In this document: piece by piece, positions 46,113 to 48,402 of the stretch
Layout of the letters: every line of letters begins with the position of its first letter
Position numbering within the stretch: the stretch's first letter is position 1
Origin: Acidimicrobiia bacterium
GTDB lineage: Bacteria; Actinomycetota; Acidimicrobiia; Acidimicrobiales; Poriferisodalaceae
Direction: 5' to 3'
Assembly: GCA_012960315.1 (NCBI GenBank)
Contig: DUBN01000078.1
Span: forward strand, 62,001-126,000
DNA: 64,000 bases
Notes under the pieces: generated by a model
Database searches by the model: none
What the model saw: only the letters and a program-made list of their open reading frames with translations
What the model was told of the DNA's origin: nothing
Position numbers and translations under genes: made by a program

Positions 46113-46583
46113 CTATGTCGGAAGTCGTAAGGGTCGACCATCAATGTCGGGACGACTGTCAGTTGATAACCATAATTGCACCGGTTCGCCGTCGGCCCAG
46201 AGCTGAGCACGGACCATGGGTCGCGCGTCTAGAGTTCCACCCGTAACGTCATCGATCTGCCCCGAAAAGACAATCTGGTTGCCGTTCGAACATCCCAACA
46301 CCGCCAAAGCTTGGGAAAGGTCGCCGGGATGTATGCCGATGCGCATCTTTCGACCCGGATCGTTGATCTCACGTTGAGTTCGCCATTGGGCAACCACGGC
46401 AGCTTCTACTGCATTTGCCGCATCGTCAAAGCAACCGACGAGCGACGTTTCGTGGTCAACAATTAATGCGCCCTTGGCTTCGAAAATCTCTGTCACTAGC
46501 TCAGTTGGTTCGACACTTTGAGGAATACCCACGATTTCGTAGTCGACACATACATATGTGAGGTTCCGCGTCACTTGGTTCAT
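46113..46583 (-). CDS. Degenerate class III adenylate-cyclase-like domain protein
   Basis: 156 residues. ALIVDHETSLVGCFDDAANAVEAAVVAQWRTQREINDPGRKMRIGIHPGDLSQ, then NQIVFSGQIDDVTGG recalls the cyclase homology domain (x-A-x-x-A-x-x-x-Q, (V/I)-R-I-G-I-H-x-G, (R)-Q-I-(V/L)-x-S). The metal-binding Asp pair and the transition-state Asn/Arg are not visible, so cyclase activity is doubtful; it could be a regulatory or decayed domain. It stands between the dehydrogenase and hydrolase genes. Confidence 0.6.
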   Translation of the reverse strand: MNQVTRNLTYVCVDYEIVGIPQSVEPTELVTEIFEAKGALIVDHETSLVGCFDDAANAVEAAVVAQWRTQREINDPGRKMRIGIHPGDLSQALAVLGCSNGNQIVFSGQIDDVTGGTLDARPMVRAQLWADGEPVQLWLSTDSRPDIDGRPLRLPT

Positions 46584-46611: not shown

Positions 46612-47490
46612 CTATTTTGCTGGCGCGACGTTGGAGAGAAACGTGAGTACGGCCGTTACAAAGATGTCGTTACGGTCACCCGCCACCATATGAGCGGCAC
46701 CTCCAACATTCGCATACTCAGAGTGGGGCACGAGGTCTAGGTATGCGTTGGCGCCCTCTTCCGAAAGCACGTCACTGAGTCCTCCCCGAACCAACAGGGA
46801 CGGGCATCGAACATTTCTCGCAGCCTCTTCCTGACGAGGTATTCGATCTGCGATTGATCTTTTTCGTTGCATAAATTCTGGGTCCCAATGCCACCGGTAG
46901 CGACCATCAGGCCAGAGGCGCACATTTTTTGCGAGGCCATCGAGTGTGCGTGGTCGTTTCCGGTGCGGTTGATAGTTAGCGATCGCTTCCGCTACTTCGT
47001 CAAGAGATAAAAACCCGTCTGGTGCTTGACCCATAAAGTCTCTGATCTTTCGGACGCCGGATATTTCGATGCGAGGCGCAGTGTCAACCAAGACCAACGC
47101 GGTCGCATCAACCCGTCCTTCACCTACAGCAGTCAAAGACGTGCCGCCTCCCATTGAGGCGCCGACGAGAATGGGTTTTTGTCCGAAATGCTCGGTGACC
47201 GCAACGAGGTCGTCAACAAGCACATCATTTGAGTAGTCACCGTTAGGAGCCCATTCGCTGTCGCCGTGACCTCGGGCGTCGAGACTGACTGCTTGGTAGC
47301 CCGCGTCGGCCAACATCTGACCAGCGCTTTTCCATGCGTGACGCGTTTGTCCGCCGCCGTGTTGCAGGATCACAAGTGGACCCGAATCCCCGTAAATATC
47401 GGCCGCAACGTGAACTCCGCCGGTCGCGGGGATCATCTTGTGCGGCTCTGGTGCGCCCTCCAGGCGGGCGCCTCGCTCACCTTTGGCCAC
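46612..47490 (-). CDS. Alpha/beta hydrolase
   Basis: 292 residues, GTG start. LVILQHGGGQTRHAW holds the oxyanion HG, LDARGHGDSEW is the strand-4 loop, VGASMGGGTSL the nucleophile elbow with Ser, and NVGGAAHMVAGDRND the catalytic His region. It resembles carboxylesterases/haloalkane- or epoxide-hydrolase-like enzymes; exact reaction unknown. It lies 6 bp downstream of the GrdB-like selenoprotein gene in the same direction and is probably co-transcribed with it. Confidence 0.9.
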   Translation of the reverse strand: MAKGERGARLEGAPEPHKMIPATGGVHVAADIYGDSGPLVILQHGGGQTRHAWKSAGQMLADAGYQAVSLDARGHGDSEWAPNGDYSNDVLVDDLVAVTEHFGQKPILVGASMGGGTSLTAVGEGRVDATALVLVDTAPRIEISGVRKIRDFMGQAPDGFLSLDEVAEAIANYQPHRKRPRTLDGLAKNVRLWPDGRYRWHWDPEFMQRKRSIADRIPRQEEAARNVRCPSLLVRGGLSDVLSEEGANAYLDLVPHSEYANVGGAAHMVAGDRNDIFVTAVLTFLSNVAPAK

Positions 47491-47496
47491 GCCGCG

Positions 47497-48402
47497 TCAG
47501 CCTCTACCCGCACCATCGGCTTTAGCGTCCGCTTGGGCGGCGCGGCGCTGATCTCCAGCTGCTGCGAGAGCAGTCCTATTGGAGTCGTCAACCTTCATAA
47601 AATGCCGCCGCCAATCATCATTGGACTCGGCGTCCCATACAAAAGGTGTCTGCGTTGTCGTTCGGGGCTGCCATGCACGTTCAAGAAGGTCTAAGGCCAT
47701 GCCCATGATGGTTGTCTGCATTTCGACGTCTCCGGGTTTGCCGGCCGGATTTCCTAGGGGAAAGTCAGTGAATACAAAGCGGCTTACTCCGCATTCTTCA
47801 ACGATGTCTCTTGCGCTACCGACGACCACGGTGGGGAGACCCGCTTCTTCGAGATGGCGCGCGACCAGACTCACGGTCTGGTGACAAACAGGTCAGAGGG
47901 GGACTAGTACTACTGCGTCCAGCTCATCTTGCCGAGCAAATTCGAGTATTTGCGGTGCGTCCCTGCGACTAGTGCGTCTGTGACTGTAATCGGTAGGGAC
48001 GCCGTAGAACCGATCGGCGAGTGAACCAATTCTGCCTTGGGCAGCAAATTCCCTAAGACGATTGATCGGCAGGTAGGTGTCCAAGTCGTCAGTGTGGGTG
48101 TTGTCTTTATCCCAGAAGAGATCTTTGTTGTAGAGGCCTCCCAATGCGTCATCGCAAAGCGCTGCATAGGGTTCTTTTGTTCCGGAACCGGCCACAGCCC
48201 CTTTATCGACCTTCCGCTCAAAAAATGATGTAGTGATGAGTCCTATACGGCACTCAGCCAACGGCTTTTCAAGCGCCGCAAACGGCACCGCATGATGATA
48301 AGCCCATTGATATGCCTGTGGGTAGCCCTGGGCTCCGTAGTAGCCCCGCGATTTGTCGATATAGCTGACATGTGAACGATGGGTGCGACGATCGTCTGCC
48401 AT
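47497..48402 (-). CDS. GrdB-like selenoprotein (glycine/sarcosine/betaine reductase B family), in-frame TGA = Sec
   Basis: 301 residues when TGA 47893-47895 is read as selenocysteine (residue 170). The two halves, 47893-48402 and 47497-47874, are in one frame and join as VVLVPL-U-PVCHQTVSLVAR. U-x-x-C is the redox motif of GrdB-type selenoproteins, and RDIVEECGVSRFVFTDFPLGNPAGKPGDVEMQ downstream is the family core. Strong ribosome site (GGGGAGGGAG) before ATG 48402. Classical glycine reductase is anaerobic and multi-subunit; no GrdA/C partners are here, so this is a stand-alone member with unknown substrate. Confidence 0.92.
47864..47882 (-). promoter_or_regulatory. Candidate bacterial SECIS hairpin of the GrdB-like gene
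   Basis: On the mRNA, bases 11-17 after the UGA (ACCAGAC) pair perfectly with bases 23-29 (GUCUGGU) around the 5-base loop CGUGA. The stem-loop is compact and at the right distance for SelB recognition, and shares the CGUGA pentamer with the peroxiredoxin hairpin. Confidence 0.65.

Follow-up and report, generated by a model that had tools for sequence, protein, structure and literature searches.

A stand-alone selenoprotein family of the PrdB branch in Acidimicrobiia and other bacteria

The window, a stretch of 64,000 nucleotides from the genome of an Acidimicrobiia bacterium (contig DUBN01000078.1, positions 62,001 to 126,000), carries a gene that, judged by comparison with its relatives, encodes a real selenoprotein whose in-frame UGA is read as selenocysteine (Sec), and which we identify with near certainty as a stand-alone selenoenzyme from the PrdB branch of the GrdB/PrdB superfamily. 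Two minus-strand open reading frames in the same frame, 48402-47893 (169 aa) and 47874-47497 (125 aa), are parted by a single TGA, and reading this codon as Sec joins them into one 301-aa protein with U170 in the context LVPL-U-PVC-HQTVSL (Table 1). The initial annotation had placed the TGA between the two frames with the translation VPL-U-PVCHQT; its coordinates and translation agree with ours, and the strand, which it did not give, is the minus strand.

Table 1. Positions of the selenoprotein gene, its recoding elements and the adjoining gene within the window
Feature	Position	Strand	Details	Evidence
PrdB-like selenoprotein gene	47497..48402	minus	ATG 48400-48402, stop TGA 47497-47499, 301 aa with Sec170	homology, purifying selection
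In-frame UGA, selenocysteine U170	47893..47895	minus		TGA in 80/80 best named orthologs, Cys codons in L021/L024
Cys173 codon	47884..47886	minus	predicted resolving cysteine of U-x-x-C	aligns with Cys of PrdB UGTC
SECIS-type hairpin	47864..47882	minus	7 bp, loop CGUGA, starts 10 nt past UGA	covariation
Alpha/beta hydrolase	46612..47490	minus	GxSxG, PcaD-like, 6 nt downstream of selenoprotein stop	Pfam Abhydrolase_1

Regarding the family placement, the top model is PrdB (TIGR04483; E = 5.6e-26, 91.4 bits), and its alignment places U170 on the Sec of the PrdB motif UGTC. The initial annotation had described a GrdB-like protein with a U-x-x-C motif, and while its assignment to the GrdB/PrdB superfamily of selenoproteins stands, the protein is PrdB-like instead, the GrdB-type models reaching 36-49 bits. 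Indeed, the PF07355 search proposed at that time gives 18.2 bits for the recoded protein, under the gathering score of 22, and the scores of 38.6 and 42.6 bits lie below the cut-offs of 602 and 65 (TIGR01917 / TIGR01918). Compared with GrdB, GrdF and GrdH, the C-terminal half is homologous and Sec occupies the same site, but the protein has about 300 residues against about 435 and reads UPVCHQ where these read UGTGTRC (LTAT-U-GTGTRC in the Actinomycetota GrdB encoded beside PF09338). Score, motif, length and partners all led us to reject membership in GrdB.

The likeness to PrdB has limits of its own. A Sec-x-x-Cys is present at the homologous site, but the score stays far from the equivalog cut-off of TIGR04483 (300 bits), whereas an authentic PrdB from Enterococcus raffinosus, encoded beside prdA, prdC and prdD, reaches 399.7 bits. 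With the PrdB proteins of E. raffinosus and Terrisporobacter, a core of about 210 residues aligns at 27% identity, including Sec, the Cys at +3 and the next His (LTAGUGTCHR in PrdB, LVPLUPVCHQ here), in agreement with the position of Sec in Clostridium sticklandii PrdB, residue 152 of 242 (PMC3091704). The window protein is longer, by about 20-30 N-terminal and about 45 C-terminal residues, its motif is UPVC instead of UGTC, and neither prdA, prdC, prdD nor a proline racemase gene adjoins it. End-to-end similarity (38-41% identity) is found with two alphaproteobacterial proteins of 302 and 308 aa that RefSeq names 'glycine/sarcosine/betaine reductase selenoprotein B family protein' (WP_207415257 and WP_035710215); they are likewise encoded by stand-alone genes, but carry Cys for Sec (NCPVCHQ) and have different neighbours. 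In a tree built with a quick method, in which some branches are weak, the PrdB-like group stands apart from GrdB (100% SH-aLRT), a single origin of Cys is seen among the rows used, and the window clade lies nested within a set of sequences from several phyla, a pattern that suggests horizontal spread.

D-proline and glycine reductases employ a pyruvoyl proprotein, PrdA or GrdE (PMC3091704). No match to PF09338 (GrdE/PrdA) was found in the window genome, in 29 other Acidimicrobiia with a relative, or in 36 genomes from other groups that carry the gene or a relative; as positive control, the same model detects an authentic PrdA at 91.6 bits. Among Actinomycetota, 15 of 397 have PF09338 matches, and those tested also encode GrdB and GrdA. 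GrdA is absent from the 18 tested genomes with the gene (18/18) and was recovered in all five positive controls. The claim of the initial annotation that the gene lies outside a glycine reductase operon hence holds, as judged by GrdA and GrdE/PrdA, for the genome as a whole. Apparent grd sets (PF09338, Sec-containing GrdB and Sec-containing GrdA; L160-L172) occur in some Actinomycetota, among them two genomes from the same class. The genome encodes a haem-copper oxidase subunit I (COX1) and therefore probably respires oxygen, in line with the aerobic setting first proposed. Since the partners are missing and the organism apparently respires oxygen, the enzyme must serve another redox reaction.

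Among the neighbours singled out by the initial annotation, the alpha/beta hydrolase proved conserved across relatives and the MaoC/acyl-CoA dehydrogenase/CoA-transferase set did not. In 22/22 named loci of the clade the hydrolase gene (70-97% identical) follows downstream in the same orientation, and it is kept even in a sub-clade whose other neighbours are wholly different. This linkage is limited to one family-level clade: in the neighbourhoods of 80 orthologs, neither the hydrolase nor any other partner gene was found conserved near the gene beyond the window clade, and other phyla have other neighbours. Only close relatives, in which the synteny of the whole region is preserved, retain the MaoC, acyl-CoA dehydrogenase and CoA-transferase genes; these were rejected as a pathway clue, as this context says little on function. 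Local associations, named by eye, occur in Smithella-like genomes (a thiolase with a CoA-synthetase-like gene) and in Binatia (a luciferase-like frame). In the window, a 156-aa frame downstream of the hydrolase (46113-46583) has no Pfam match and is conserved in the closest clade only.

The genome encodes four UGA-bearing PrdB-like genes, namely the window gene and paralogs at 33%, 31% and 27% identity. These three are L010 (G000:C15), L011 (G000:C51) and L012 (G000:C26); with 162 bits, L010 comes nearer to PrdB than the window gene does, and L011 and L012 have long C-terminal extensions. Elsewhere in the wider family, the diverged paralog L061 (9642-10397) reads U-P-L-D-H-Q, with Asp for the usual resolving Cys and with the UGA and the hairpin kept, so a Se-S step would not be universal in the family. 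A further paralog with the motif PLCTRT (L063, L070 and L071) has a small conserved neighbourhood comprising an MFS transporter, a putative dioxygenase and an LLM-type monooxygenase-like protein (named by eye), which is a possible pathway clue.

As to the U-P-V-C site, for which the initial annotation had suggested structural prediction, the AF2 model (pLDDT 83) places U170 between strand 163-167 and helix 171-186, at the helix N-terminus, with C173 one helix turn further on. A helix N-terminus that follows a strand is a usual place for a reactive residue. Searches of PDB sequences with the single protein and with a profile returned no relative, and Foldseek with the AF2 model gave nothing at E <= 1e-3; structure hence gave no functional lead.

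For PrdB itself, the proposed cycle starts with attack of the selenolate on the alpha carbon of pyruvoyl-bound proline, after which a PrdB cysteine cleaves the selenoether and PrdC reduces the mixed Se-S bond (PMC3091704). By analogy, we propose that SelB brings Sec-tRNA to the UGA as directed by the hairpin just downstream, that the selenolate of Sec170 would attack a small substrate at an electrophilic centre, that displacement by Cys173 would then leave a Se-S bond, and that this bond would be reduced by a general thiol donor such as thioredoxin or a comparable system. PrdB relies on the pyruvoyl group of PrdA to activate its substrate, whereas the same Sec-Cys cycle would proceed here without the pyruvoyl step; as a PrdA-type partner is missing, the substrate must bring its own activating group, be it a carbonyl, thioester, halogen, disulfide or peroxide. 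In this clade, either the substrate or the product of the selenoenzyme is probably processed by the neighbouring hydrolase. We give this mechanism, a Sec-Cys redox enzyme working with no pyruvoyl partner, roughly even chances on the sequence evidence; an unrelated carbonyl-bearing partner may be encoded elsewhere.

The main rival is an antioxidant selenoperoxidase or a thiol-disulfide oxidoreductase, in which Sec170 would be oxidised by a hydroperoxide or a disulfide, Cys173 would resolve the product and thioredoxin-like donors would reduce it. The position of U-x-x-C at a helix start, the aerobic-type genome and the absence of the partner genes for GrdE/PrdA and GrdA all agree with such an activity, and GrdB itself reportedly has peroxidase activity, the title subject of a 2007 paper by Grobe et al. 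However, the numerous residues that are invariant beyond the motif (D106, Y139, S140, R142, R208, W256 and W264), the presence of four diverged paralogs with UGA in a single genome and the linked hydrolase suggest specific substrates, and the gene is also present in metagenome-assembled genomes named Desulfobacteraceae and Smithellaceae, groups known as anaerobic. We hence regard a peroxidase as possible but the less probable of the two. Far less tenable is the proposal of a true subunit of D-proline, glycine, sarcosine or betaine reductase with its partners encoded elsewhere: it has homology to PrdB and GrdB in its favour, but no PF09338 or GrdA is present in the genome or its relatives with the controls working, the score of 91 falls far short of the 300 bits of the equivalog cut-off (authentic PrdB: 399.7), and the motif differs, so that it is close to refuted.

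The recoding is documented by comparison. Relatives were sampled in 148 genomes of the same order, of which 53 have one and 95 do not. Among those 53 genomes, nearly every relative contains a single in-frame TGA, at the same codon wherever the site can be aligned, and in the named genome collection TGA is kept at the Sec codon in all 80 best loci, which by record title belong to Acidimicrobiia, 'Deltaproteobacteria' groups, SAR324, Myxococcota, Binatia, Alphaproteobacteria, Chloroflexota and Acidobacteriota. Sister orthologs L021 and L024 (n=2, one genus) have TGT or TGC, both Cys, at the exact Sec codon and have lost the CGUGA loop, and Cys stands at the Sec site in two plasmid homologs as well. 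The initial annotation held that relatives with a sense codon unrelated to Cys would speak against its proposal; the sense-codon relatives carry Cys at the site.

The hairpin initially described (ACCAGAC-CGUGA-GUCUGGU, bases 11-29 after the UGA) was confirmed. Folded as a single sequence it is not unusual (z = -1.0), so the case for it rests on comparison. Across 39 distinct Sec sequences, 91.6% of the stem cells are paired, five of the seven pairs have changes on both sides, and cells changed on both sides yet still paired number 33 versus 8.2 in shuffles (0/500); sliding the stem partners by 1-3 columns destroys the pairing, leaving this control flat. In the PLCTRT subfamily, both sides of the stem are swapped together along with protein residues, which makes the covariation more than codon redundancy. 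Within the window, Rfam at gathering thresholds gave no match.

Between the window gene and close orthologs, nonsynonymous change amounts to 0.01-0.10 per site and synonymous change to 0.1-0.9, before and after the UGA (pn 0.02-0.10 versus ps 0.1-0.9 for the part after it); by these rates, purifying selection acts on both sides of the codon. The genome has a tRNA-Sec above the cut-off (65.1 bits) and encodes SelA, SelB and SelD, the latter (L191, G000:C4:3866-4801) with an in-frame TGA and probably a selenoprotein itself. SelB is found in 51/53 genomes with a relative versus 40/95 without (Fisher p = 3e-12). The gene combines the features by which bacterial selenoproteins are recognised, namely a conserved UGA with some Cys replacement, a SECIS hairpin under selection and Sec machinery. 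That the UGA is a true stop, an assembly error or a pseudogene mutation, leaving separate or broken frames, would fit the insignificant single-sequence fold, but is refuted, and vanishingly improbable, given TGA in 80/80 independent orthologs, a covarying hairpin, purifying selection on the part after the UGA and the existence of Cys substitutes.

PrdB is among the commonest selenoproteins of ocean surveys, read as the D-proline reductase of anaerobic fermentation. Surveys of the Sargasso Sea and GOS counted 42 and 235 genes for marine 'proline reductase PrdB' selenoproteins with UxxC (PMC1088965; PMC2398784), and the Sargasso paper gave D-proline reduction as the function of the PrdB family (PMC1088965). 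These survey sets share the UxxC motif with the window group and probably include it; the genomes searched here are without a PrdA partner. Marine 'PrdB' selenoproteins have hence been counted since 2005, and RefSeq already names Cys homologs; a search of the literature on Acidimicrobiia selenoproteins returned nothing on the window protein. New here is the demonstration that the subfamily is coherent and stand-alone, with a motif and a SECIS of its own, that its partners are absent while the positive controls are recovered, and that a hydrolase gene is linked to it.

As relatives are present in marine Acidimicrobiia and in many phyla without the obligatory pyruvoyl partner, the reading as D-proline reductase is probably wrong for them, and a different Sec-dependent reaction would be widespread among bacteria that apparently respire oxygen. 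More tentatively, and as a conjecture that we would not yet favour, a large stand-alone, oxygen-compatible Sec family spanning Actinomycetota, Desulfobacterota, Myxococcota, SAR324, Chloroflexota and Alphaproteobacteria might perform PrdB-type selenolate chemistry (reductive C-X cleavage) with no pyruvoyl partner, and might make up the greater part of 'PrdB' in the oxygenated ocean. The Cys versions in the cultured Roseomonas haemaphysalidis and Haematobacter massiliensis open the function of these proteins to bench work.
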